64,000 bases of DNA from Polytrichum commune (lineage: Eukaryota > Streptophyta > Polytrichopsida > Polytrichales > Polytrichaceae): the NCBI GenBank assembly GCA_950295325.1, contig OX485808.1:31516527-31580526 (forward strand). Reading direction: 5' to 3'. Positions 6,779 through 41,400 of the stretch are shown here, one piece after another (positions within the stretch are counted from its first letter, which is position 1; the number at the start of each line of letters is the position of its first letter). A model generated the notes under the pieces. That model saw only the letters and a list, made by a program, of their open reading frames with translations, was not told where the DNA came from and searched no databases. Made by a program: the position numbers and the translations under genes.

Positions 6779-6808
6779 TAGAGGGTAGATGCATGGTTGA
6801 GTGGCTCA
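6779..6808 (+). repeat. Outer left inverted end (L1) of a candidate DNA transposon
   Basis: It contains GATGCATGGTTGAGTGGCTC, matching the reverse complement of the right end near 21850-21874 at 25 of 26 positions over the core. It is followed by an AT-rich spacer and a CCATACCC motif also seen after the second left end near 11448. TAGA lies just outside on both sides (ctctaga here, tagagct at the right), a possible 4-bp target duplication. Confidence 0.55.
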
Positions 6809-7149
6809 ATACCAGACCATACCCTGTTTTTTTTAACTCCATACCCTTCAAATTGTATGACCACACGTGTAAAAGAACCGTCATCCAAATCTGCTCCGTC
6901 ATTCATTCGACCATGATGGAGTTTCAAACTTGTTGGCGGGCATGTGTCACAGCCGTTAGATGGAACCCGATCGTGTGGCCCTGAATGAGTAGGGTTTGAA
7001 GAGCATGGTCTCCCTTTGTCGCATGTGTTGTCCTCTCTTCCCGGAGGCCTGTCGCACGCGGAGCTGTATGCTGTCACGTTTTGTCGCATTCGAGAGTCGA
7101 TTACGGAGACGTCCTCTTAGGCTGTTACGGTGACGTGAAGGTGTACGCC

Positions 7150-10100
7150 ATGTCCGACTCGGAGGACTCGCGGGAGGAGCTGGAGGAGAGGCTACGCTGT
7201 CCAAAACGAGGTGCGAAGAAGAGCAGCTGGGTGGATCCACTGTATGCTTGTCAGCCTGAGATCCTGTGGGATCGAAAGTCAGTAGTGACAAGGGATTGGT
7301 TTGCAGAGAAATACAACTTGTGCAACAGAGGAATCACCCCGAAACAGATTAAGATTGGGCACCATTTAGAGGAGGCGGATGTGGAAAGCTTGTTTGGGCC
7401 GCGGCAGAATGGCAATGGCTATCGATACGCTACAATGGACGAGGAGTTTGTGCATAAGGTGGAGACAATGTGGATGATTTGCCACCAAAAAACAGTGGTG
7501 CCCAACACCCGCATGGTGAACGTCTCCGAGGCAAAAGGGTTTGCGTACGAGATTGTGAAGAAAAAAGAAACTAACTGGGCCCTTTTCGCAGAGTGGACCT
7601 GTCGGGATCAGTTGAAGAAGTTGCGGGCAAAGGAAGAGGACGCCGCAAAGTCCAAGGGGATTTCTCTGAAGGGAGAGGTGGATTCGGAGAAGGAGTGTCA
7701 GCTGGGCAAAGAGAATTGCTCGCGAGATCAGGTGCCCGGCTCCGGGATCAATTGTGCAGGCATCATACCGCAACGAGGTCACAAAATATCTTTTTTGGGA
7801 AAAATTGCTAAGTCTATCGGAGAATGGAGTCTGTGCTTGAAGACGTTGGATCGGGAGTCCCTGGGCTTGGATGGGTACGTGCAGGTTCTCTTCGCCGAAA
7901 AAGAAGAGGCCAGAATGACCTTGCATAACGTCTCCGGCCAAGTGGAGTATGGCCGCAAGCTCATTTCCGACGCTCAATCGAAGCTATAGGAGTTGGAGGC
8001 AGAGCGGGATGCCTTGAGGGCTAAGCTGGTCTCGGTGAGGCCAGAAGACAGTGGGCTGGTCTTCATACACCGAGATCTTGAAGGCCTCCAGCTCCAAGTG
8101 GATGCACAAAAATCAATTCTGGCCGTGTTTGAGGAGACTTGCGGTGGTGGGCAGGCAGAGATAGTGGAGTTGGCGAAATTGACCGCTGCTGAGGAAGCCT
8201 GGAGCAACGCTAAGACGAGGCAGTTCTTGTGGAGCCGTCACCGACTTGCACTCCAATCTCAGCTGCGAGGCATGCGGGCTGGCTACGAACGTCCCACCAC
8301 AACACCTGTGCCGTTGCCGGCTATCCACAGCGACTGGGGTCAGGAGCCTATCGCCACTCACACAATCCAGGTGGGTGTGTGCCCATTTTGTTTGCAGGGC
8401 TTTCAACCGGCGTGGGATTGTCGCTTAGCCTCCTGCCGCCACGCTTACCATTCATGGTGTGCACTCACGCATTTCAGTGAGTCCACCAAATGCATCCACA
8501 AAGACTGTGCCATGGAGATGCACAAGGATTGGTGGATCTGCACAGGGATTCAGAAGCCCGTGGTGGGGAAGGATGGAGTCGTCATGGTTGCAGCTTGGGA
8601 GAGAGCACCTCTTACACGTAATCCCCTCACTCCCCTCATTTTGTGTCCATTTTGAGTTTATCATGCTGCTGTTGGTACATCGTTATGGTTTGGGGACATC
8701 ATGTTGGTTTAGGTATATGCTGTGTACTTTTTTGGGGGGGGGAAACATAACCACACCTGCGTGTTCCATGGTTGTGGAAATTGGAGGTTGGCACTTGCTT
8801 CGCTTGCACTCCTGGACTCCTGGACTTTGTAGCTGCACACATGGATTAGTCGTGAGCAAAATCCACTTCTCTCTTCTGATTGTGGGTTGGACGTTGTACT
8901 TGATGGGAATTTAAGAATACATGAGGCGTTTTATGGACCCTGCATTGTTTGTATTGATTGGAAGAAGCCAACATTCAGTAGTATGTAGGGTTCATGGGTT
9001 TCAGTGTTAGGGTGTGGTGGAAATGGACTTTAATCCCTCTCATGTCCAGGTCCACACAGAGAAAAAGAGGAGTTAGGGGTTACTTTGAAAATTCTGGCAT
9101 AGTTCAGAAGGTGTTTGTTGTGGTATTGATTGTATTGAGCCAATATGATGTTGTATGTACTTCCAATGGTCTTCAGTGTTTAGGGTTAGGTGGGAATGGG
9201 CTTCAGTCCCTCTCATGTGGATGTCCACTGACATCAAATGTGAAGTTTAGGGTTCATTTGAAAATTTTGGCATCGTAGTATACCAGTGCAGAGGTTTGCC
9301 ATGTACTATAGGGTTTGTGGACAGTGCAGTGTTCAAACTGGCTTCTTAGTGATTGTTGGAGTTGATTATGGAATACACGGGACGCCCTTCAATGTCTATA
9401 ACTTTTGGAAGAGTCTTATGGAAGCATCATATAGAAATTTTGACTGTGTTGGGACAGTCCTGGATGTCAAAGAAGGGGAATGGATTTCTATATATCCTGG
9501 GTGGATAACCATTGACTTGTATGTAGAGTTCGATGTGATATTGATATATTGTGGCTTACATGGACTTTGAACTCCAGGAAGTGGATGTGTACTGACTACT
9601 AATGGGTGTGGTCATGGAAGGGTTTGTCACCGGGGTTTATGGGATCGCAATTCCTATATTGCTAAACCCTGTCATCATCTCTGGTTCCCTAATCGTTGTC
9701 TGTGTGCAGACCTTGGACAAACCTCCCGAACGATTTCTGGGGTTGATAAGGTGCGGGAACCAACTCCTTCACGTACTCCAAGACCCTCCGTTGGAAGCTT
9801 TCAAGACTTGGCCGGCAGGATGCCCCGCCAAGATGACGATGTGGCCAACATGGTAACCCCCCCACCGAAACCGCAGCCACATTCCAGCCGAATGGCACCT
9901 CCTGCCACTCGTGAGCTCGCAGTTCCAAAAATGCAGGCACCCGTTGCGCAATATGATTCCATCATATTCGAGACCGAGGCTGACGCCACTTCCGATGAGT
10001 TGCAGTTTCAAGAGAGGCGCACAAAATCCAAAAACAACGTGCAGTGGGAAGAGAGGGTCTCCTGCGGTGACGAGGAAGTCAATGGGCGGTTGAAGAGAAA

Positions 10101-10491
10101 AAAGGGCCACCAACGGGTTCAGCCACAGGAGAAGGAGGTTCGCATCAACTTACCAGAGGCAGACGTATCTCAAAAGAGGAAGTCGAATCTGGGCAGTTCC
10201 AAGCGAGGTACTCAATCACAGACCCCTCGTGATTTTGAGGGCGACACTGTGGAATTCTCAACGGACGAGACCGACGATGGCGGGGGTTCGGAGGATGATT
10301 TTCAAGACAGGGAAACCCTGTCCCAGCTATGTTTTAGGCAGAAGGACTCCCACATTGATCGGTTCCTGAGAGGTGAGAGTGATGAAGATGACCGCACAAA
10401 TTCACCTGTGAACAAGGGGAAGAAATTGACCCTTGCTAAGCGAAAACCTATTTCCACGAGGACCAGATCGTCCCAGCGGCAGAGGCCTTAA
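7150..10491 (+). pseudogene. Coiled-coil/RING-like zinc-finger protein, two exons, one in-frame stop
   Basis: The first ATG in frame is 7150. Exon 1 is 7150-8617 (donor C|GTAATC) and exon 2 is 9710-10491 (acceptor tgtgtgcag). The split codon CAC restores the frame, giving about 750 codons. The only break is TAG at 7987-7989, with the same frame open on both sides. Order: conserved-looking N-terminal block (about residues 30-170), coiled coil (about 260-340), then a degenerate RING finger near 410-460 with CPFC, ASCRHAYHSWC and CIHKDC. Exon 2 is charged, with acidic runs and KRK-type basic patches suggesting a nuclear protein. Similar CxxC...CxHxYHxWC proteins occur as multicopy genes in mosses and lycophytes. 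Function unknown. It lies just inside the outer left end of the candidate transposon. Either a one-base nonsense lesion or readthrough is possible; I favour a lesion. Confidence 0.6.
8985..9295 (+). repeat. Imperfect tandem repeat inside the intron
   Basis: Two units about 180 bp apart share a core with tcagtg, ggtgGgAATGG, CCCTCTCATG, a short spacer and TTTGAAAATT.TGGCAT. A weaker third unit follows near 9550. They lie in the 1,092-bp intron 8618-9709 of the RING-like gene and carry no reading frame of note. Confidence 0.45.
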
Positions 10492-11444
10492 GGATTCAGG
10501 TTTAGGGGTCTTTGCATATCCTATGGGAATTTTGTCTGTGGTTGGGCAGGAGGTTGCAGTGAAGATTGCATTATCTTCACGGTTTTGTGATAGTTGACTC
10601 TAGGGTGATGGGAAAGGGCTTTATTCCAAGATATAGCTAGGTAAGAGTCAGCTGTCAAGCACTGAGAGCTTGTCACTTGGCTTTATTCTTGAATCAAGGT
10701 CCTTGATCTTATGAACCTTGAAATATGGAATTATTTTTGAACCTACAAGGAAATAGAACGTTCTTGAGTGTCCTCATGTATTCTTTGAATTTCTTCTTTT
10801 GCGATTGTCCTCAAGTATTCTTTGAAAGTCTCCTCTTGCATCTCAGGTGCCCAAGTGGAATTTCTATGCATAGAATTGCAGGCCCTGTTTTATTATAAAT
10901 GTCTCAAATTCAAGTACAGTATGAGAATGTCATGGTACATCTAAGTGGAATTTAAAACTAAGATGATGGCATTTACCCTATGCTGTGACATTGTTTTGTT
11001 TTTAGAAGCTGCCATGGTCTTATGATAACATATAGAACATATTATCCATGTCTGGGATGATCAGAGAGTGGACCTGTAGCCCCTGTGAATTGGCTGGTAA
11101 TTAGATGGCATTGGTAGTGCCAAGTCGAACTCATTCTAAAAAGCTGTTTTTTGGTTTGAGTATTGGATGAAGAACTGGTTTTCCACATAAAGTTCATCGC
11201 TTTTGAAACAATGGCTGCTTGAAATTCAGTCGCCTCGGAACATTTGGCTATGTTTTCGGCACAACAGGCTTGAAGATGAGTGAATGCGCAGGAACACATG
11301 GGAATTCAAGCAACCCCAGGTGTTGGAGTCTAAGCGATGGGAGCAGTGTCAAATGCCCTTCAATGCAGAGAATTATGGTTCAAAAATCCTGGGCCAAAGA
11401 GAGGGAGAAACCTCACCAACAGAGAGGTAGATGGGACTCAAAAC
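10492..11444. other. Downstream region of the RING-like gene, no gene
   Basis: About 950 bp with no coding signal that I can support. It probably contains the 3' untranslated region. It ends at a second copy of the transposon-like left end. Confidence 0.45.
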
Positions 11445-11446
11445 CC

Positions 11447-11480
11447 CTAGGGTGGATGCATGGTTGAGTGGACCAATACC
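11447..11480 (+). repeat. Inner left inverted end (L2)
   Basis: Starting at CTAGGGTGGATGCATGG, this is identical for 25 bases to the reverse complement of the right end that finishes near 21874. It also aligns for about 85 bp with the outer left end at 6779, including AATACC, CCATAC, a T run and a second CCATACCC. CTAG is palindromic and sits at both outer edges, so it may be target duplication or part of the inverted repeat. Confidence 0.6.
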
Positions 11481-11680
11481 GGTCCATACTTTTTTTTTTT
11501 AAAGTCCATACCCCTGAAAGTTGAGACCGAAGACACTCAAAGTTTCAGCACTCTTGTTGCTAAGTGCTGGGTCCGGAAACTAAGATTATGAGATTCAATG
11601 TTCATACAAAAGTAAGAACAATTACAAAGTTAAAGAAATGGATAAACAAACAACTCTATTACTAATTACATAAATATATA

Positions 11681-12945
11681 CTAGTAGAAACCTTTTGCTA
11701 CTCCAGTTCCCTGAGAATGCTCCTGAAAGCATCACAATGAAGAAAACTATTAAAATTCATCATAAAATAAATAACAATTTTAAACAATTTTAAAAATTAA
11801 CAACATAAATGAATTTCCTTACCCGTCTAGCTTCATAAGTTCTCTTGGCTTTGAAATACGCCAGTCCAATTTTGCTTGAAGGATTATCCAGACTTTTTTT
11901 CAAGCGTAACATAAATGACATTTTTTGTACCAAAGCAATACCTAAAACACCAACTTGAACTGGTCGCGTTGTACAATGAACAGTAGTCTTTAAATTTAAA
12001 AGAAATGCTGCTCCCGCTGTTAGTGTACACCGTACCTTGTATTCTGGGAGCCAGAAACTTGGTTGTTCTTCCACCTCAAGCTTCCCATCAGGAAAAAACC
12101 ATACTATAAACCCATATCCATAGTCGGTATCATCGTCATGAGGACAACAATAATAATCCCTAGTAACTGAAAATAGAATAAAAGGGGTGTTACCAAAATG
12201 ACCGTCTCTTCCCAAAAGACCTTCATTTTCAAAGTTCTTGTTCAAAGTCTTCATAACATCGGGAAATGAAATTTGAAGCCATTTTGATACTTCCTGAATA
12301 AAAATCTCTAACAAAGCATATAAACTCTCATGGGGATGAATAAACCATCCACATGAATGGTTCTCATATTGCCCATACATGACCATCCTCGATCCTCCCT
12401 TTGATTTACCTCTGTTGGTATTTTTTCCGTGCTCCTCAAAAATGGATGTCATTGCATAAAATCTTGAATGATCAGATACTGGAAAAACATTCAACCTCAA
12501 AACTCCCAATAAATTTCCAAATCCATCCACCATACGTACCAGACCTTCCATTGTCTTAAAATTTTTCTTCTCTTCCTCAAAATCATACTCACTTGATTCA
12601 TAGTATTTCTTCTTTCTGAAAACTTTGAAAATCTCCACTGTATAGTCCGTTGAAGAAGAAAATGGTTGATGCTGGGACTTGAAATGTCGCTTCATCCTTT
12701 TAAAACTGAGGTTGTTGTCCATAGGCTCCAAACAAGTTAAACACACGAATGTATTGTTACTTTTTATCCATTGAAAGTTCCAGGATTCTAAAATATATTT
12801 CTTCAAAATCAGCTCAAGCATCCTCTGATGCTTGTTACCCAAGGTATGGCGCTCGATGTGTTTAGCTTCGTTGGTGATCTCAATGAGACATATATCACAC
12901 GTTACATTAGCCTTGGAACCTTGATCCTCATTTTTGTCAATGATC
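11681..12945 (-). CDS. Two-zinc-finger TET/JBP-like 2-oxoglutarate oxygenase (5' end incomplete)
   Basis: Main exon 12945-11823 starts after an acceptor (gatttag) and ends at donor CGG|GTAAGG. A 100-bp intron leads to a last exon 11722-11681 ending in TAG, total about 388 codons. Two C2H2-type fingers come first (CDICLIEI...HIERH and CLTC...HFKSQH), as in BED-like DNA-binding modules. A double-stranded beta-helix block follows: TPFILFSVTRDYYCCPHDDD gives the HxD pair (about residues 268-270) and TVHCTTR the distal iron His near 322. TPF, the Y-GF after HDDD, and the FWLPEY strand match the TET/JBP layout. The usual 2-oxoglutarate Arg is not obvious. TET/JBP enzymes oxidise methyl groups on DNA bases, so a role in modifying transposon or host DNA is inferred. 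No upstream start is in frame in this exon, so at least one 5' exon is missing; a 91-nt open segment near 13430-13520 is a weak candidate. Confidence 0.6.
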
Positions 12946-13138
12946 CTAAATCATTCAAAACCAATAACTTATTAAAATATATGTTTTGAAAGTGCAAAAT
13001 CAAACTATGACATCATCAGGAGCATTATTTAGAGAACTAAACTACAACTCCAGATAGATAAAATGTTGATTCCTTATTGGAATACATTATCATATTCATG
13101 ACCAAATGCAAGAGGACGGCGACAATGACACCCTCCAT

Positions 13139-13343
13139 CTAATGCCTAACACAATATACATATTCACTATATTATCATGGTTGCAATTTCTAAGAGACTA
13201 GCACCATAAACTTCACACTTTAAGAGAGGCCAAGTCTTTACCACAAGGACACTGTGCATAGCACACATCGTTGCAAGATTTAAGAATTATGACCTCCCCC
13301 AAAGTATGAACTCTATACGCAAAATGTCATTCAAATATTTCAC
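13139..13343 (+). repeat. 205-bp direct repeat, copy 1
   Basis: Matches 13620-13826 with only a few differences, 481 bp apart. Both start ctaatgcctaacacaatata and end atttcac. The repeat lies upstream of the oxygenase exon on its strand and shows no coding potential. It looks like a local segmental duplication. Confidence 0.8.
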
Positions 13344-13619
13344 ACATATTCACATGCATATTTATAACAAATTGGTCGTCATCCACCTCAACATACACTT
13401 TGGCCTTGAAAAAAGAAGCACTCACCGATATGAACACTAGTAAAATCAACTTCCAAAGAAAACCGTGAGTTTGCAAGCTCAACTTCTAGTAAAAGTAGTT
13501 CTGAAAGCTTTTCACGCTAGGACTTGATAAATACTCTTTTTCTTCACCTACAAAAGAATAAAACCATTAATGTCAAACCATTAGCACAAATGAAGTTAAT
13601 GCCAATTTAACCTACGTAT

Positions 13620-13826
13620 CTAATGCCTAACACAATATACATATTAACTCTATTGTCATGGTTGCAATTTCTAAGAGACAAACATCATAAACTTCACACT
13701 TTAAGAGAGGCCAAGTCTTTACCACAAGGACACTGTGCACAGCACACATCGTTGCAAGATTTAAGAATTATGACCTCCCCCAAAGTATGAACTCTATATG
13801 CAAAATGTCATTCAAATATTTCACTC
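13620..13826 (+). repeat. 205-bp direct repeat, copy 2
   Basis: Second copy of the segment at 13139-13343. The interval between the copies (13344-13619) contains a minus-strand open stretch ending at a GTGAGT donor-like site, which could be an upstream exon of the oxygenase gene, but I cannot join it in frame. Confidence 0.8.
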
Positions 13827-13959
13827 AAGTACACACAAGAATGAGTTGTTATTGTACAAGATAATGGAGTGGTCAACAAGGTAGTCAGTGCCTTCATCCT
13901 CTGTCTTCATGTAATAGACTCTGTATGCAATCAGGAAAACCATCAATTAATGCTCTCAT

Positions 13960-14336
13960 TCTTTTGCTACCTACAAGTGCAGAAGATAAGGTAGATACAT
14001 CTTATGCTAACACCAGCCTTATTCAAACAGCTACTTTTGGGTGCCTCTATTTCCAAAAGTTTGATGAATGAGCCAATTTTTCAGCCAGTGATTTTTGTAC
14101 TCATGAAAAGCACATGTGGCAAGTCCTGAATTTCTTCTACTAGTGCAAGAAATCTAATGAGAAACTTGACCCTCCAGATTTGATGTAGAGGTATCAACCC
14201 ATTCTTCTAAAGAGGTATCTAATTTCTCTGCAATAGTACCTAACCATGCCTGCACAAGTTCAGTTGACATAAGAATTTGAGATTCAAATAAGACGTTTCT
14301 ATTTTGACTACGTCTACATGGTTCCCGTGCAAACAT
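13960..14336 (-). pseudogene. Degenerate coding stretch, function unknown
   Basis: The minus strand gives an open block (about 60 codons, 14336-14154, with LVQAWLGTIAEKLDTSLEEW). In a shifted frame a second protein-like block follows (LIRFLALVEEIQDLPHVLFM), then further text after a stop. The continuity of sense across one frameshift and one stop suggests a decayed exon rather than chance. I do not recognise the family. It sits between the oxygenase and transposase genes and could be a former exon of either. Confidence 0.3.
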
Positions 14337-15049
14337 TTCAACTCAAAATGTCTCCTCACAACAAATTGGCCTGCGCAAAAAGAAACTTCATTTCATGCGA
14401 ATTCTGACATGCTTGATGCACGATGTAATTTGACTTGATATTCTTCAGCTACATAAGATGCCAATGCACGTTTACTTTCCAATATTCCAAAATAAAGTTA
14501 GCCTCGAACTACATTCCTAATATCCACTCGATTGTCTCTCCGACATCTATATCTACATCGCGCACATTATAATTCTGAAAAGAGCTTTAACATTAGTGCC
14601 ATTGAATTTTGACAGTAAAAGGTGCAACTTTTTGCCAATGCAATTGCCAAGGATTTATTTATTTATTTTTAATGACAATGTATGGTTGCATCGAGAGCAG
14701 TCGATTGAAATTAAATGTGGTTCATTTTGAGTTCAGTGGTAATTGTTCGAATTCGGTTGTTGTTGCATGACGTCCATATCATGATACAAAACCCAAGATG
14801 CATGGCAGGTCACGCGTCACTACTATGTCAGTTGTTGAGACAGGTTGCGTAAGCCTTCCCCGCCCATTAATATTCCAAATAAATCACCAAGGTTGCCAAA
14901 GAGGTTGTTGAAGATTTAATATCCGTGTCTTGGAAAGACTTGTTCAGAACAAAGGTTCATAAAAATAACTCGAATTCTACATCTTCTTTCATACCTTAGG
15001 TAAATATGCTTACTTCGGTGTCTTTCTTAAACAAACACCTATATTCCAG

Positions 15050-15320
15050 TAGTGTATGGTTGGGTTTAAAGCTAAGTATGAACACCAAAAACACATGCGT
15101 CATAAAGAGATTAAAGTACATGCTCAAAATCGGTTAACCATTCTAGACAGAATAGTCAACATTAACCAGGAGCAACTATTTGATCATTTAATAACTCAAA
15201 ATTCTTCACTTAACAAAGTGGAAGATATTCATACGAGCTCGGAAAACCATCAGACAAGTAGCTATGGGCATGATATGGAGTTGTTAATCATCTCGCACAA
15301 AGTACAAGTTTCATGTTCGG
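15050..15320 (+). repeat. Dispersed repeat family R, copy 1
   Basis: Shares an ordered set of blocks with six other copies in this window: ATGCTCAAAAtCgGTTAACCAT, TCTAGaC, aGTCAACAT, TTGAtCATTTAATaA, a CTTCACTT-type block, GATATTCATAcGAGCTC and ATGGGCATGATATG. Divergence is high. The open frame through it has no recognisable domain. Confidence 0.5.
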
Positions 15321-15981
15321 ACAAAGAGTGCAGAAAGGAATTTGTCTGTTTAATACCTGCTTACCTTATATTTCCTCTGTAGTGAACGCAGGAACAAATA
15401 AATACAGGAATCTTGGTCCTCTCCAGCACCGCTACTGAGTAAATCTCAGCATAACAAATATGAGGATCAGTGTTCCAAAATTTGCATGCTTGCAGGTCAC
15501 TTAATTCAAGTATAAGATGATCCCTGCAGCTTTTGAAGCTACAGTACCTTCACAGAGAAGGTACACAGAAACTGCAATGTTTTTAATACTTGCTCCACTT
15601 GACCTAGTTCGACGAAGCTGCAGTTGCCGATTCACCCCAAAAAGAAAGTGACTACGTTTCCACAATGATTCACTGCATCACAGCTCACAACAATACCTAT
15701 AAGAGATACAAACTTGGATAAAGACTACACATATTGTACACCATATCTAGTTTAAACTCTTGATGAAATCCTAAATGCCAAATGTACTAATATTAGGTGT
15801 TCGGGTTCTCACCTTTGGTCGATCTTCCTAGCTAGAACTCTGTGTGTCTCTAACATCACACCTCGAAAACAGATGTAGACAATTCACAAATCCCTACAGA
15901 CTTCTCAAACAGCAATTAAATCTCACATGGTGATATCTTACAAGAAGACAACTGACAACTAACAACACTCATATGTAAGAC

Positions 15982-16454
15982 GCAAATCTGAAGGAATACA
16001 ACATTGAATGTTGCTATTATATAGATTTTTCTTTATTTGTTTTATCTGCGGGAGGAGTGACGGAGCCGCGCCGGGAGGCAGGCAGCGCGGGAGGCAGGCA
16101 GGCAGGCGGGGGAGTGACGGACCAGCGGCGGGAGGCAGGCAGCGCGGGAGGCAGGCAGGCGGGGGAGTGACGGAGCAGCAGGGGGGGGGGGCAGCGGCGG
16201 GAGGCAGCGAGAGGGAGGGAGCGCCGGGAAGCAGCGCCGGGAGGGAGGGAGGGAGGCACTCCACCCCGAATACCCAAGTGCGTGGAATTCCATTTGTATC
16301 CAATCCTTTGAATCCGCTCGTAAATAGATGAAGATATATGCGTAAATAGATAAATAGATGAGATAAATATTTTTACCCTAACCCCTACTTTTAGTCGGGA
16401 CGTGTGGCAGAGGGGTTCTAGCAAATCTGAAGGAATACAACATTGAATGTTGCT
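15982..16454. repeat. 34-bp direct repeats flanking a 405-bp GC-rich insert
   Basis: An exact 34-bp repeat starting GCAAATCTGAAGGAATAC occurs at 15982-16015 and 16421-16454. Between them lies a strongly purine- and G-rich block (16053-16258) made of GGCAGGCAG, GGGAGG and GTGACGGA units, repeated about every 60 bp, in otherwise AT-rich DNA. Long frames on both strands here arise only from the repeat and are not genes. Confidence 0.75.
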
Positions 16455-16897
16455 CTTGCAACGCTCCAAAAACTCTTCCCTGCATCTTGACGGCTACACG
16501 TGCTCGATGCGCACATGAAGTCGGTTCTGGATGATCCTGTTTCCGACCTGTAACCAATCATGCATTCAATGCTTGGTGAGATTCTTTTCTACATATTCAC
16601 GGACACAATTGCCTGCATACGTAACAACCGTGGTTCCGCATACTCGGATTTTAGCTTGTAAACCAAACGCAGATGGAACCAGAGGATAGAGGCGTTCTGA
16701 GATTCCAGCTTGAAACCATACTTTAAACATGATTAGTGCATTTAAATGATCATGCTCTCCAGGGTCTCAATAAAAATTCTCACCTTCATAGTGGGTCATC
16801 GTAATCGTCTCCCAAATAGGAATCCAGAACTTGACAACCCCCTCCACTGTGGAACTTAGGTTTTACCTGCAAGAAAACCCAGAATACCCTAAACCCT

Positions 16898-19800
16898 TCA
16901 CGCCTGCTCCAAAATGGCGTCTTCCACTTTCCTCTGGAACTTGTACACGGGGTCATTACCAGACACACGGTGATCACACATTGACATCGGAAATTTGACT
17001 GCACAAACATGATCTGCCAAAATGTGTGCCCTATTTGACTTTCTCAAGAGGACATACGTATCAGCGCCTAAACCATACTTCTGGTAGTAGAGTCCCTCAA
17101 GAACCTGATCTCCAGGTTCGAATTCCTCACCCCACTTGCAAACAAAAGCTGTCTTACAAGTGTAAGCTTTCCTAGTGCATACAAGAACATAAAAATCCAC
17201 ATTTTCTTCATTATCAGGGGAAGCTGCAATAGCAAAGTTATCACCCACTTCGATTATTGAAGCAAAATATGTGCCATTTACACCAACATGATGCCAATCT
17301 TCCACCGAAAATTCATTCAACTGGACATTCCGAACATAAGCAGCATTCAATGGCACTAAGACCTCCAATTCCCAGTCCCCAGCCCAAGCTTTATTCTCAC
17401 ACTCCTCCCAGTTCCCTTCAATACATGAGAAACAAAAACATGCCAAATGGCGCTTCAACAACTTACCAGCCTCCATGCTGCCGACGGACCGAATAGAGTG
17501 CAGATTTCTGCACCGGGGTATGGGCTCACAATCGTACTCGTGTTCCTTGTCAACATCTCCTTCCAGAACATGCCAAAATGTTCTATTCACAGGCCTCCTA
17601 TCGCCATAGACAGTTTTTGGGCGGCCACTCAACTCTTTCCTCAAGTAACCGACAACATCTTCAGCGCACTGTAACTTCGGGCCATTTATATCCAATTGGG
17701 CAGTTCGAATGTACCGTTTCAGGACAGCACCTGCTCCATCGTGCAGTCCTTTCCCATGTCCTGTTCCGAAAAAAGACCACATGCACGTGCAACCACCAGT
17801 AATCTCTGGATACCGAGCTACAAAGTACCACGGGACTCGACTCTTAAACTGATTTGCACAGCCATCGCTCCATATCCAGTGATGTTTGGGTATGAAACCC
17901 CCCTGAAGAACGCTTTCCCAATGCAACATGAGGCAGTGTTGCACAAAATAGCTATCATGTTTCATATCATCACTTATGTAGAAATGGTAGGTCGTGATAT
18001 TACGTGTGCTCTCATCATGTGGATCTGGGTGAGGATTTCGGATATATGCTATGTGTACAAGGATACTAATTTGGTAGCTATGCCAGTGCATGGACTGGAC
18101 TTCATTTTGTACCTCAAAAGAATAATTTTCAGCATAGTCAATGACGGACACCATTGTGTCAGCGGGGGAGGTCCTCAAGCAAGTCCTAAATTGTTCATCC
18201 TCCCACTTCGCCACAAAACTATGACGCACAAAAAATTGGAGTTTTGGCTTGAGGTAGTTGATTAACTCACGCCATGTTGTGTCTTTGTAAACCAACTGCA
18301 ATTTCTTTCGTTGTAGACCTTTCCTCGTAGTGATAGACTGCATCTCGTAATGCTTCCAGTGCACAGTTATAGGAGAGATTCCATCCTCTTCGGTAGGACA
18401 CATGGGCAGAATGTCCACACCGCAGCACATACATTCACCAAACAAACAATCCTTTGCATGCCACGCCAAATTAGGAGGTTTTGGGCACAACACTGCATCT
18501 GAAATGGTTGTCAGACCAGGATACACAAACACTCCCGCAACACATTGCCCCACATTTGATTCACTGAGACATACCTCACATTGACAAGCACAATCTACTT
18601 TGTTGTGTATACCTGATTTTGTCCTCAGTTGAGTAAAAACAGATAGCAATTCCTCCATTTCTACGTGGTATATACAACAACACACATTTCGGTCATGCAA
18701 TTTTTTCACCCAATATGGTTGCAAGGAATCAAAAACACTCTTACCGACAATTACATCGGGATGGGCCTCACGGAAGCGCATATAGAATGCCATCTGTCAC
18801 AGGAATACACAAACAAGACATTCAGCAAACGTTAATCCTTTACAAGTTCCTGTAGAACTCCATAGAGGTGTTGTACAGTCCACACCCTCATATATTTCAT
18901 GCAATAACTCCCTAAAAATCCATGACCCTCAAACCCTAGTCCTCACCATGGGTGACTGTCTACAGATTGTACAATTACACTACGCTACTTCCATATACTC
19001 ATGTGGAAGTCCATATACTCCCACACACTGCATATAACGTCTCGAGTAGTCACACATATTCAATACTTTACTCACCGAAGCGCATATAGGACGCCATATG
19101 TCACAGGAATACACTATTAAGACATTCACCAAAAGTTCTGGGCTTAAAAATGCCTGTAGATCTCCATAGAGGTCCTGTGCAGTCCACACGTGCACATATT
19201 TCCTGCAAGAACTTCAAGAACATCCATGACCCTCAAACAATGGTCCTCACCTTGGGTGACTGTCTACAGGGTTTGCAAATACACTGGCCTGCTTCCATAT
19301 ACTGATGAATAGGAAGTCCATATACTCCCACACAATGCTTATAACGTCTCCATATACCCCCACACAATGCATATAACGTCTCCATCAGAGACACATATTC
19401 AATACTCGACTGCATACACTCCAAAGGAACGGTGAGAAATCCCATCGATGTCAATTTAGCAAATGCCCATATGTAAACATTCCATAAATTGACAATTCCC
19501 TCCCATACTCTATATGGGGTCCCTGTAGCATATCCACCGTAGTACATCAATGGGAGGAGAAGTAAATAAACTCCAATATTTCCTTATGAAGACCCAAGCG
19601 GATCACCCTGAACTCCCACCCATGCGTGAAAAGTTCCACAGAGTCCAGAAGTTGCAATGCCGTCCCTAAACCACAACGAAACTGATGGGATCCCATATGC
19701 ACAGTACCGGTATGCGTTTTATAGAGAAGTAGCCAGATTGCACACTCATGGCTTCAAATGACAAGCTAATACCCCAAACATGCACAGATCTAGGTGTACT

Positions 19801-21076
19801 CCTTGGTCCCTAGAATCAGTTGGAAGAGAAAACCAGCATGCTCAATATAACCCAGAATATCACCCTAAAATCCAAGATTCGAATTAAAGCCCACTGCATT
19901 CAATGTCGCAAGGAAAACCTGAAATCCTAAGAACATATGTGACCCCTAAAACGCTCATCACATCAAATCAGGCAGATAGCCACAAGACTGAAGCCAATGG
20001 AGGAACGCACTGTCACCTTTCACCGATCCACCGAAACCCTAAACCCTTCATACCCTAGCACAGAAATTGCAAATTTCTACAACTTAAGTGATAGGTAGGT
20101 CCATAGCCAGATTGCACACTCATGGCTTCAAATGACACGAGAATACCCTAAACAGGCACAGATCTAGGTGTAGCCCTATGACCCTGGAATCGGTAGGAAC
20201 CCTAAACCAGCACGAAATTCGGAGACCCTCATTACACAAAAAAAAAAGCAAGACGACATATGACATAGATGTGAGAGCGCCCACCAGAGATTCCAACAAA
20301 TATTGAGCATGGTGTTGAACGTATGTTTTTGGAGCAACCCACTTCCTTACAACCTCCTTGCGATTCGGGCTTGGCCGTGTCTCTGCAGCCCACCACGTAG
20401 TGACAATGTCTTTCACCATCAGAGATGTCGCATCGCTCCTTACCTTCCTGACGGACAAAGTCCACTCCATATGCACAGAACTGACCATGGTCGCTCGCCT
20501 CTGTGTGGCCATCGCTACATTGCGGGGATGAACCCCAAGCAGGTGAGCTGTCTGTCGGGCAGAGACTCGCTGTGGATTCGTCACAGCGGCTGTGAGGATA
20601 GCATGTTTGGTAGCTAAATGTGCCTTTGTCTTCGAAGTCTTCACCTCCGACAGGGATTGCAGCAAACTGGAAACAATTGTCTCTCGCGCATCTGTTTCAC
20701 TGCAAACCCTTCGTGACCGAAGTGGCAGGAGATCCCTCGTCAACTTATTGTTCCACACGGACTGCATTACTGCCTGCTTGTGTGGAAGCAAGCGCCCTCT
20801 TCCTCTCAAAGTCCTTTGAACGCAGCTCAAGATTGCACGAACGTCCTGGCGCACCAATCTGCGGTTGACGCCATCAGCATAGGCGTCATCACCCTCTGAC
20901 CACGATCCTGCGTCCACGTTGACACGCACAGAGTTCACAGCATTTTCTCTCCTCCGACGCCGTGATTCGCGTTGGCGCTCCCTCGCCCGCTCTTGCGCAA
21001 CATCCAGTCTAGCCCTCTCCACAGGGCCCTCTCTCCGAATACCTGCTCTCCTATCTCTCGCTCTCGCACTACCCAT
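16898..21076 (-). CDS. DDE-type DNA transposase, two exons, about 895 residues
   Basis: Exon 1 runs 21076 (first ATG) to 20285 with donor CTG|GTGGGC. The intron is 18794-20284 with acceptor tgtgacag. Exon 2 is 18793-16898. The join is in phase. Residues 1-60 are Arg-rich; a helix-turn-helix lies near 167-192 (SARQTAHLLGVHPRNV); SPNRKEVV is near 228. A Cys cluster (CACQCEVC) is near 331-339. The catalytic-type core has three conserved Asp blocks: DYAENYSFEVQNEVQSMHW (Asp 483), WSDGCANQFKS (Asp 574) and FFGTGHGKGLHDGAGA (Asp 616). These blocks recur in uncharacterised, TE-like proteins of animals and plants. The C-terminal 150 residues look like a reader-type beta domain. Frame is intact, so activity is possible. 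Three Asp as the metal-binding triad is inference; the superfamily is not assigned. Confidence 0.7.
18775..19410 (+). repeat. About 300-bp tandem duplication at the intron/exon 2 edge
   Basis: The segment from 18775 (gcgcatatag, exon 2 start plus its acceptor) is repeated from about 19077 with the same order of blocks: GTCACAGGAATACAC, TCCATAGAGGT, CATGACCCTCAAA, GGGTGACTGTCTACAG, CCATATACTCCCACACA. The duplicated piece includes a decoy copy of the splice acceptor of the transposase gene. Confidence 0.7.
19731..20221 (+). repeat. Direct repeat pair of about 117 bp in the transposase intron
   Basis: 19731-19848 and 20105-20221 both start agccagattgcacactcatg and share CAGATCTAGGTGTA and AACCAGCA. 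The spacing is 374 bp. Telo-box-like AACCCTAAACCC motifs sit between them (near 20035). No coding content. Confidence 0.65.
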
Positions 21077-21846
21077 TTCGGCGTGCAAGCGTCACTCAAG
21101 CTGAACCTTAAACCTCACTCTTCATGCACATGACGAGCACCTGCAGGTTTGAACAAGAGACATGCGAGCTGTAACGAGCAACGCAAAACTGCTCCGGAAC
21201 GTTTTCAGTCCCTAAACCCTAAAACAGAGGGTTGTAGTCCACGTGGCGCGTGGCACCAGTCACTGTGCACTCCACCCTACAACTAAAGTCATCCACATCC
21301 ACTCCCACAGTCGGTGGGACCCGAAAACGCTGCTTCCATAACTGTAGTATAGCAAGTAAAAGCGGGATTTTTGACAAGAAGCCCACTTGAAGATATTGTA
21401 CATTAGTAGTTTCCCGAAAAAAAATAATGAAAAACGATTATTTTTGCTCCAAGTATGGACTTCCAAAAAAACGTCGTCATTTAGCCTACTTAAGAGTCCA
21501 TACCAACTGTATTTCTACACATAATGTGGAAAAAAACATCACTACTATGGACCTCATAGTGGATCACATAACATACATAGTCACTCCTAGTAAAATGCCC
21601 AAAAATTCTAGACGTTTACGCCAAAATTCCTAAACCAAAACCTGTTGACCACAGTCCATATTGTATTTTCAAAAGTCCATCACCCTTAATTGAAGAAGAA
21701 TTTCATGTAAAGGAATATGTGGTCATCTACCTATTCAAGTTACCATTGTGTATCCCAAATCTCACATCCATAGCTTCTATCAATTGTATGCAACGTGGCT
21801 TGCAATGCACGGGGGTACACTGTAAAATAGGGTGTGACACAGAAAG

Positions 21847-21877
21847 TGAGCCACTCAACCATGCATCCACCCTAGAG
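21847..21877 (-). repeat. Right inverted end (R) of the candidate DNA transposon
   Basis: Plus strand reads gtgagccactcaaccatgca followed by tccaccctagag, the reverse complement of the left ends at 11447 and 6779. It lies about 770 bp upstream of the transposase start on its strand, which is a usual place for a transposon end. Confidence 0.6.
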
Positions 21878-37573: not shown

Positions 37574-38461
37574 GAAGCGGAAGGTAGTTACAAGACTTGG
37601 AGGCGACTAGGAGACTTGGAGGCAACTAGGAAAAATTGGAGACACAAACTTGAGAGAAGGGAAGGAGCACCCGAAACTCGGTAAGTATTCTCTCTTTGGG
37701 TTACATTTGAATTCATTGTATTTCAACTATTCCTTGGAATGAATTGCATTGTCAATTACGCAAATTCATTTTTGAGGAAGGAGCGCGGCGAAGGTACGTC
37801 CTCAACCTTTTTGGGAATTTGCTAAGAACTTAAAATGAACTTATAACCGAGTAGCTCATTAAAACATTAGAGGGTAAATTCACCTTAGGACATTGAACTT
37901 TGACACTCACCTCGGGGTGAGTCTCAAAGTTTTGGGAGTTGTCATTTCATGCTCTAGATTAAATTAATATTTCACAAAGTTTATGGTGTTGTTACATTGA
38001 GTCACGATTGAGGGGAGTGCTAACTCACAGGGGGATGCGATTGCTCAAGGTATGTTTATTTCTTCAAAGTGAACTCATTAACGAATTAAGGAATGCCTTT
38101 TGTACTCGTGATTGTTGTTATCCGTTGTAGAGGGTAATTCCCAAATTGTGGATGGTGTGAGAAGTTGAAGGGTGAAGCCTCGACTTTTAACATAATCTAC
38201 TCGGAAGGTCACCCCCTCACAATCGGTATTGTGGTGAGTGTTAATTTGCGGGAAGGTGCGGAGGTGATGCTCCGACTTAACCAAAAAATTAACATGAACA
38301 TGCCTATCCCCTATTGGGATTCTTTCACCTAAGTGGGCTTGCAGGTTCTTTTCCTCACCTCCTAAAAAAAAATTATAACCACACCAAGACAAGTGAAAAT
38401 ATTAAGAGGGGAATTGCTAGGATTATGTGTGGTCAAGTGAGGGTCGATCGATTCTTATGGA
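37574..38461 (+). other. 5' leader of the gypsy element
   Basis: About 890 bp of untranslated leader between the primer-binding site and the gag start codon. No conserved frame. It probably carries packaging signals, but none can be seen directly. Confidence 0.5.
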
Positions 38462-41400
38462 ATGCAAGGTAGGACTCGCTCACAAAAACCAAGTTTGATA
38501 GTAGGACTAGAGAAATCTACTCGAAAGAGGCGGTCCTCTAAAATCAGTGATAGATTAGAACAAGATAATGTTAGAATAGAGAGTTGTTTGAACGTCGAAC
38601 CTAGGACTAGGTCAATTCTAGACACCTTAGAACTTGGAGCTCAACTTGAAGAGGAGATCACTCCCTCCAAATTGAGTGGTGAAACTTCTTCGGAAAATTA
38701 CACACTTAGAGAAGAATTCCCGGTAGAAGTTGATAGGGGATTGTTGAATAGTTCACCGGTCACCATGGCCGAGGAACGGGGGATGGATCCACCACCCATA
38801 CCCCCAATTCCGCCCATACCTCCTATACATCCAATAGACCCATTGGTTAGGCCAAGAGGCCTACCAATTGTGGTTCCACAAAATTTAGCGGCGATGGATA
38901 TGCCATCTCATCTCCCTAAATTTTATGGGACCAAGGATGAGGACCCCTCTCGGCACATGGAACGGTATATCGAACGGTTGGCTAGCTTCCTCATAACCAA
39001 CCCGGGTTATTGGTTAGTGTGGTTTCCTACCACTCTAGAGGGGGAAGCCTATGAATGGTATCGGGATCATGCCGAGGGACATTTTAGGGGATGGAAACAA
39101 TTACAAAGGGAGTTTCTTAACGAATTTAGGCCGGAAGTGGGTCAAAGTACCGCATTAAGGGCATTGTCGTCATTGAAGCAAGGAAGGGAGGAAGAAATTT
39201 CGGCTTACATTAGGAGGTTTGATTTAGTGTGCACTAGATTTGTGGGTACCATGCTCAACGACGACACGCTAAAGCAATTTTTCATTCAAGGGTTTTTTAA
39301 GTCCGGAACTATTAGGGGTGTTCTAGAAAGGAATCCCTTGACCTTGGCGGATGCCAAGCGTGCGGCTAGAGATATTGAAAACTTGGATAAAGATCACGAA
39401 AGGCTATGGAGAAGGGAGGATGAATTGATCCCACAATTCATCCCCATACGCCCTAGGGTGGTAGCGGTAGAACCCGCTAAGTATGAGAACCAAATTCCAT
39501 ATGCCATTGTGGACACCGGTCCCCGACCTTTAGCGGTTAGGGAACCGGCACCTCTTTTGGCACTACCGGCCCCTAGAACGGATCCACACTTGGAGGAGGT
39601 TGAGAGAAGACTAGGTGCTAGCCAACTAGGATTCCAAGAGGCTATGATAAAACAAATGCAAAGCCTCACGGATCAAATGTCATTAATGATCCGGAGTCAA
39701 CAACCGGGGCCTCCACCCCCGGTTGAGTCGGGTAGGCATTCTTCCGGATTATGGTGTGTCCAATGTGGCCAACCGGGCCACACGCGTCAATTTTGTAGAA
39801 GTGGACAAAACCGTGACCAAAGAGGAAACGGTAACCCACCTCAACAAAATCAACGAGGTCAAGCGCCACCTCACTATGGAAATGGAAGCAATAGAGGACC
39901 ACAACCTAGAGGGCAAGGTGGCCAAAATTTAGAGAAGAAGGAATTTCATCCCTTTTGTGGAAGGTGGCACGCTCAAGGACAATGTTGGTCCGAAGGTCAA
40001 GAGTTTAATTGTAGCAATTGTGGAGGAAGTCATCCCTCGGATACGTGTCGCCAACCGGACAAAATAATTAATGTCCCTTACCCGGTGGCTAATCCACAAC
40101 AACAAGCAAGGGATAATATGCGAGGTGCTAGGCCACAAGGAGTACCGGCCAATGAACTTAGGCCACCTAACTTATACTATGACCATAGTAATGCTAGGCA
40201 AACTTTTCATCCACCGGCGGGCTTGCAAACTACAACCGGTTACATTCCAATACAAAATAGACAAGGAGTTCCACCTAATGGTAGTAACGGGAGACAAGCG
40301 CCTCCAACGGATCCGGGACCATCTAACTCCCAAGATGTTAGGTTCATGGATGGAGTGTTGGAGGCCACATGTGATGACATGCTTCCTCTCCCAACGAGAA
40401 TTGGAGAGGAGCAAAGTCAATGGCCTCCTCACACCAATGCTATTACATATGAGTTAGTGAAGGGTAAGGGTGTGGTTGAAGAAGCACCTGCACTAGCGGT
40501 AACTACTAGGGCTAGGAGAGGGGATGCCCCGTTGGAGGTAGGAATAGGAGAGCAAGGAAATTACTCTTCGGATGAAGAGATTAATCTCTCCGAGTTGGAT
40601 AGGGTAGCTAGAAGAGCTACTAAGGATGTGGAGAGGGAAAATATAATTTTACAAGATAGGGAGAGGACTAATGCGGTACATGACTTGGATAATAGCGATG
40701 TGGGTGAATGGGAAGGACCGGGGGTTCCCGTAGACGAATTCGACGTAGTGGGTAATTCTAAGGTGGAAAGATCTACCGGGTACGACTTGTGGGCGGACCT
40801 TAGTACACTCAAGGCGGATATTACTTTCGGCCAACTATTGGAAATTTCACCCACGGCAAGGAAAACATTAAAGGAGGGAATGCCGGTACACAAGAGGATG
40901 AGGAAGGTGAAAGCTAAAATAGCCGCTAGGATCCAATCACAAGGTGGAAGAGACGTGAAAGCTATAGAAATAGAAGTTGTTATAGTAGATAAGGTGGTTC
41001 CTAATGTGCTAGTCGACGGAGGGAGTAGTCTAAATATACTACCGGAGGATACTATGAAAAAATTGGGACTTGGACTCACGGGGCCTTCACCTTTGGTCAT
41101 AAATATGGCAAATCAAAGTTCGACTACGCCTTTGGGGATGATCAAGGATTGTAGAATGACTACGGGAGGTGAGGAGTACTTGGTCACCTTCCATGTCATT
41201 AAAATGCACTCCAACAAGGACACCTTCCCCATTTTGCTAGGTAGGCCTTGGTTGCGGATGGCGAATGCTATGGTCAATAGGGGTGGACCTAAACCATCCA
41301 TCACTTATGGTCCGGAGGGTAATAGGGTCATAGTGTCCATTGGTTCATTAGAAGGATGGATGAAGAAGGAGATGTATTTGCCATTGGAGAAGGAAATTGA

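Follow-up and report, generated by a model that had tools for sequence, protein, structure and literature searches.

The window, a 64,000-nucleotide stretch of the Polytrichum commune genome, contains a complete and genuine DNA transposon of 15,090 bp at positions 6783-21872, which starts with GGGT and ends with ACCC. Its two 26-bp terminal inverted repeats (TIRs), the left one GGGTAGATGCATGGTTGAGTGGCTCA (6783-6808, plus strand) and the right one at 21847-21872 (minus strand), are 96% complementary. They are flanked by the 4-bp target site duplication (TSD) TAGA, at positions 6779-6782 on the left and with identical bases at 21873-21876 on the right. TIRs, ends, and TSDs were compared with those of sister copies, which are 97 to 99% identical to the window element. 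Perfect 4-bp TSDs were found in the sister copies at C4:8.18M (AATA), C1:24.06M (AAGA), and C4:24.31M (TTGA), and also in a related element at C6:32.75M (CACA); none was found at the ends of the copy at C3:27.96M. The terminal motif occurred 25 times in the 408 Mb of the assembly when up to 2 mismatches were allowed and was absent from the reversed control. The original prediction had placed a transposase between inverted ends, which these TIRs and the TSD bear out; the element is larger than that prediction had it and also has a third gene, with a RING finger (7000-10491, plus strand).

The transposase is encoded on the minus strand. Its large C-terminal exon (16898-18796) is intact, codes for 632 amino acids, and has 79 matches genome-wide. 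A probable N-terminal exon (20232-21091), suggested by where it lies, by its strand, and by its being partly conserved among sibling elements, encodes a basic, helix-turn-helix-like stretch (VSARQTAHLLGVHPRN). Relative to a sibling that is 84% identical, the transposase showed a dN/dS of 0.05. It had no match in Pfam at an E value of 1 or lower, KDZ included, and none in the PDB. Since the Pfam KDZ model was unmatched and the TSD measures 4 bp, the element is not assigned to KDZ, which agrees with the non-KDZ transposase that had been proposed. The TSD of Zisupton elements is 8 bp long. The transposase could be of the Sola type, the agreement being seen in the 4-bp TSD alone.

The RING-finger gene consists of open reading frames at 7000-7989, 7990-8655 (which carries the RING finger; zf-RING_2, E = 7e-4), and 9571-10491. 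In the window copy, an in-frame TAG at 7987-7989 splits a frame that is 551 amino acids long in most sister copies. The RING gene and the transposase, on opposite strands, occur together at over 20 loci, with identities as low as about 25%. Because of this genome-wide co-occurrence, we consider that the basic element has two genes. The idea that the left 4.7 kb had been added outside an older element was rejected, as the RING gene travels with this transposase throughout the genome. Elsewhere in the window, a single frame of 1968 amino acids (38441-44347, plus strand) resembles an intact Ty3/Gypsy gag-pol polyprotein.

The remaining gene lies on the minus strand at 11790-12950, where a stop-to-stop frame of 386 amino acids encodes the putative oxygenase, with H271, D273, and H325 as iron ligands. 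All the motifs of the original prediction are present in this frame: two C2H2-type zinc fingers at 12660-12910 (CDIC...H...H and CLTC...H...H, to which the Pfam zinc-finger models match weakly), a TPF motif, and a C-terminal domain with HDDD, the strand YGYGFIVW, LPEYKV, and VHCT. In sister copies, the frame starts at an ATG (MRIKVAKANVTCDIC...) directly 3' of a plausible splice acceptor and is open from there to the stop. Therefore, no missing 5' coding exon is required. An ATG a few residues upstream of the first CxxC was also found in two other families described below (family D and L068/L069). This repeated layout suggests that the coding sequence probably lies in one exon, with at most a 5' untranslated exon besides. 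The window copy has lost 1 nucleotide a few codons after the ATG of the sister copies, which puts this ATG out of frame, and it is probably a damaged copy. Two sister copies, one of them L002, have the full frame and all catalytic residues, the intact genes lying at C4:8.19M and C4:18.82M; the others, like the window copy, carry frameshifts, stops, or deletions. Within the element, divergence is highest in the oxygenase block, whose dN/dS is near 1 among copies. An equal ratio was obtained for the transposase when recent copies were compared; this value is therefore uninformative on function, neither favoring nor opposing selection, and gives no support here to recent purifying selection.

Copies of the oxygenase gene were found at nine loci on six chromosomes (C1 to C6), accompanied by the RING gene at all nine and by the transposase at eight. 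Two of these loci, C1:24.07M and C1:24.14M, form an inverted pair and may represent one duplication. Thus, lying inside one transposon bounded by TIRs and TSDs and present at nine loci, the oxygenase gene moves with the element, in agreement with the original prediction of a mobile element that brings its own enzyme. The closest relatives (C1:58.0M, C1:10.95M, C6:32.75M, and C1:54.2M; transposases 94%, 91%, and 84% identical) encode the transposase and the RING gene and showed no oxygenase match, which argues that the oxygenase is the recent cargo of one subfamily. The oxygenase segment has a GC content of 36%, compared with 45 to 54% in the core genes. The left border of this AT-rich segment is marked by an internal, extra RING-side terminus (GGGTGGATGCATGGTTGAGTGGACCAATACCGGTCCATAC; 11450-11519, plus strand), the first 40 bases of which match the RING-side terminus of a related element at C6:32.78M (L080). 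On the simplest reading, one subfamily recently captured the gene, which then spread; loss of the oxygenase from the sister elements is a possible alternative.

Further observations concern the structure of the copies. The segment at 14396-16448 is present in three copies and is missing or replaced in others, being a separate recent repeat nested inside the element. Among three copies, the region 14283-16283 mostly showed a divergence of 0 to 0.6%, compared with 2 to 4% for their oxygenase blocks; part of this region is a separate recent repeat, which accounts incompletely for the mosaic of divergence. Within the nested segment, positions 16051-16260 hold GC-rich tandem repeats of the GGGAGGCAGGCAGC type. 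The inverted pair on C1 consists of two element copies about 54 kb apart (G000:C1:24062754-24078456 and from C1:24132893 onward), whose oxygenase scores are identical and which share a flank at one end; it may be a large inverted duplication or a feature of the assembly.

The window protein had no relevant match in direct searches of Pfam, NCBIfam, and the PDB, apart from the weak zinc-finger models, and the Tet_JBP family (PF12851) that the original prediction had named was not matched directly. The link to this family runs through relatives. The genome contains two further families homologous to the window gene, with their iron ligands in the same alignment columns, so that the HxD...H signature is retained across the window family, family D, and L068. 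Family D (L015-L018 and L042-L063), mostly decayed, is dispersed over about 14 loci on C1 and C3 to C7; it has one C2H2 finger and a single intron, which separates HxD from the distal histidine. The L068/L069 family comprises an intact-looking gene at C2:604k and decayed copies at C1:71.7M and C7:37.9M, has two fingers and several introns, and is homologous to both other families. The window gene matched family D with an E value of 4e-9 by phmmer (3.6e-5 in a six-frame search of the genome), and a profile of family D and L068 found the intact sister copy L002 with 69 bits. The spliced D protein, in turn, matched Tet_JBP at 1.5e-7 (31.2 bits, the curated Pfam cut-off being 34.9) and Tet-like (PF20515) at 3e-4, and L068 matched PF20515 at 5e-4.

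When joint profiles of the three families were searched against the PDB, the sole oxygenase matched was CMD1, with E values of 9.7e-7, 4.2e-6, and 4.4e-7. As a control, a fragment of CMD1 was searched against these sequences together with 12,000 shuffled ones: it found family D and L068 at about 5e-6, and no shuffled sequence scored better than 0.4. The profile of the window family alone did not reach CMD1. No relatives were found in the viral contigs and phage genomes that we searched. AlphaFold gave low-confidence models, with a pLDDT of 36 (full protein, 23 rows) and 31 (core, 26 rows), too low to show the double-stranded beta-helix of the superfamily. Taken through this chain of relatives, the placement of the oxygenase domain in the TET/JBP superfamily, as a distant member, is well supported by the sequence comparisons. 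The prediction of a TET/JBP-like oxygenase with two zinc fingers thus holds at the level of the superfamily. A canonical TET that makes 5hmC or 5fC is not the likeliest form of it: among the matches proposed (TET2, JBP1, and CMD1), it is algal CMD1 that was found as the best one, and the arginine that binds 2-oxoglutarate (2OG) is absent.

Several copies of family D have kilobases of flank in common, with minisatellite-like repeats, and family D, as these shared flanks suggest, probably travels on another mobile element. L068 (G000:C2:604268-605922) is a TET-like gene of low copy number that has introns and two zinc fingers. Another locus, G000:C2:1128016-1128408, lies above the PF20515 cut-off (70 bits) and shows stops in the read-through. 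Both are possible TET-like genes of the plant host.

We compared the residues of the three families with those of CMD1, taking the roles of the latter from its published description (PMC7854593) and the correspondence from sequence alignments. The iron triad H271xD273...H325 has the right spacing and aligns with the triads of family D, L068, and CMD1. D276, at H+5, corresponds to CMD1 D350, the aspartate that contacts 5-methylcytosine (5mC), and is also an aspartate in family D and L068 (a tyrosine in the decayed copy L015). An aspartate contacts N4 of 5mC in CMD1 and NgTET1, where TET2 has an asparagine (PMC7854593). W284, at H+13, corresponds to CMD1 W358 and is invariant in all three families. 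In CMD1, this tryptophan fills the space of the 2OG-binding arginine, excludes 2OG, and binds vitamin C (PMC7854593). In the vitamin C site, S261, T263, and T327 correspond to CMD1 S335, T337, and T399. The threonines at H-8 and two residues after the distal histidine are kept in all three families, single decayed copies aside, and L068 has a glycine at the position of Ser335. The position of the arginine that binds the C5-carboxylate of 2OG, aligned by spacing and not by structure, is occupied by V335 in the window family, glutamine in family D, and asparagine in L068. An invariant R-G-x-x-K about 100 residues before HxD aligns weakly with CMD1 Arg244-Phe245/His249, the Phe and His being unmatched, and the equivalent of CMD1 F416 is not aromatic. 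With the 5mC-recognition aspartate and the 2OG-excluding tryptophan kept and the 2OG-binding arginine absent, the enzyme appears closer to CMD1 than to a canonical TET, and vitamin C is its predicted cosubstrate.

The assembly has matches to the LEAFY SAM domain at four loci; LEAFY being a family of streptophyte plants, they place this genome among these. A MET1-type methyltransferase is encoded in the same assembly; therefore, there is methylation for an element to escape. CpG transitions among copies occurred at 1.8 times the non-CpG rate, a weak sign of methylation. Contamination of the assembly by fungal DNA was considered and rejected on the basis of the chromosome-scale contigs (seven large ones account for the bulk of the 408 Mb), the copies on six chromosomes, and the presence of LEAFY and MET1. 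The C5 cytosine methyltransferase family (PF00145) had at least 123 genome-wide matches above the cut-off (353 candidates), many of them outside the window in repeated frames of up to 1386 amino acids (e.g., G000:C6:16196865-16197134 and C2:22814200-22814538). These repeats probably correspond to a retrotransposon with a DNA methyltransferase, and methyltransferase-bearing retrotransposons have been described in charophytes and dinoflagellates (PMC5890265).

With moderate confidence, we interpret the element as belonging to a two-gene plant transposon, with transposase and RING gene, of which a recent subfamily gained a zinc-finger, CMD1-like oxygenase that would counter host silencing. We infer the activity and the anti-silencing role of the oxygenase from the activity of CMD1 and from the precedents of fungal TET-bearing transposons (PMC12730594) and of VANC (PMC5735166). 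The zinc fingers would bind the DNA of the element itself, where the oxygenase would modify 5mC, either with vitamin C, as CMD1 does, or by oxidation. This modification would lift or prevent silencing by the host and so aid transposition; it would bring about by chemistry the effect that VANC proteins have for the VANDAL transposons of Arabidopsis. A narrower version, which we put forward tentatively and regard as rather unlikely when taken by itself, is that a zinc-finger-targeted, vitamin C-dependent enzyme of the CMD1 type turns the 5mC of the element into a hypermodified base, 5gmC or one like it, and thereby lets it escape silencing. Described as an intermediate of 5mC demethylation, 5gmC is correlated with active transcription (PMC12458080). 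If this were true, plants of this lineage would have an unrecognized DNA modification brought by mobile elements.

The gene could also be a passenger that brings no benefit, a host or transposon gene that was caught between the transposase and the RING gene and is in decay. The near-neutral dN/dS among copies, several of them broken, the highest divergence in the element, and the transposition of the nearest sister elements without an oxygenase are consistent with this. However, two copies retain the full frame with every catalytic residue, the transposase is equally neutral among recent copies, and the subfamily that carries the oxygenase is the one present at nine loci, so that we hold a mere passenger to be unlikely, if still a serious candidate. 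A canonical, 2OG-dependent TET that makes 5hmC, 5fC, or 5caC on the DNA of the element and feeds plant base-excision repair would also fit the TET/JBP homology, the kept HxD...H, and the 5mC-contact aspartate, and enzymes of this type are known from TET-bearing transposons of fungi (PMC12730594). Against it stand the V, Q, or N at the position of the 2OG arginine and the invariance, in three families, of the equivalent of the 2OG-blocking Trp358, and we consider it improbable.

The substrate might instead be RNA or another molecule that is not DNA. Some TET relatives act on RNA, and the first finger, U1/matrin-like and weakly similar to fingers of the ZMAT2/Prp11 type (E values of 0.06 to 0.3), could contact it; yet the conserved aspartate that contacts N4 of 5mC and the association with a DNA transposon make this quite improbable. 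That the similarity to TET/JBP arises from chance matches of short motifs is very improbable indeed, although the window protein has no significant direct match, given the mutual homology of the three families, the shuffle controls, and the independent matches of the relatives to PF12851, PF20515, and CMD1.

The favored reading, a transposon whose recent subfamily gained a CMD1-like oxygenase, offers a concrete, recent, and multicopy case in which to test whether plant transposons and DNA methylation are engaged in an enzymatic arms race. The intact sister copies can be expressed and assayed, and the sister elements devoid of the gene are natural controls. To our knowledge, TET-bearing DNA transposons are known only from fungi, where Iyer et al. 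reportedly described such TET/JBP-bearing elements in 2014. Fungi are the sole hosts covered by the survey of such transposons published in 2025, whose text makes no mention of moss, Sola, or zinc fingers (PMC12730594). We found no plant TET-bearing DNA transposon in the open literature, to which our search was largely confined. According to PMC6949463 (section 7), TET-like enzymes in plants lack functional evidence; beyond Chlamydomonas, the activity of CMD1-like enzymes has been called unexplored (PMC11065753).

Among the systems already described, CMD1, the vitamin C-dependent TET homolog of Chlamydomonas (PMC7854593), resembles the oxygenase in HxD...H, in the equivalents of D350, W358, T337, S335, and T399, and in the absence of a functional 2OG arginine. 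The putative enzyme of the window differs in its two N-terminal zinc fingers, in its location on a transposon, and in having no clear match to R244-F245-H249, in place of which it has R-G...K. VANDAL elements of Arabidopsis (PMC5735166 and PMC10398659) are likewise plant transposons with an extra anti-silencing protein, a role shown for VANC and proposed here. Compared by description, VANC is a sequence-specific anti-silencing protein that is not described as an oxygenase. Sola2 elements (PMC3627910) have in common with this one the 4-bp TSDs and a long transposase (about 890 amino acids), and they too take up cargo (Fanzor1). The likeness is one of TSD and transposase length and of cargo uptake; the TSDs found here are not restricted to AWWT, unlike those of Sola2. 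The nearest parallel in cargo is provided by the fungal DNA transposons in which some subfamilies, bounded by TIRs and TSDs, carry a TET/JBP gene (Kojima 2025, PMC12730594). The moss element differs from them in its plant host, its transposase that matches no Pfam family, its RING partner, its 4-bp TSD, and its putative CMD1-like zinc-finger enzyme; within a kind of transposon known from fungi, the plant host and the predicted CMD1-type enzyme are what is new here.
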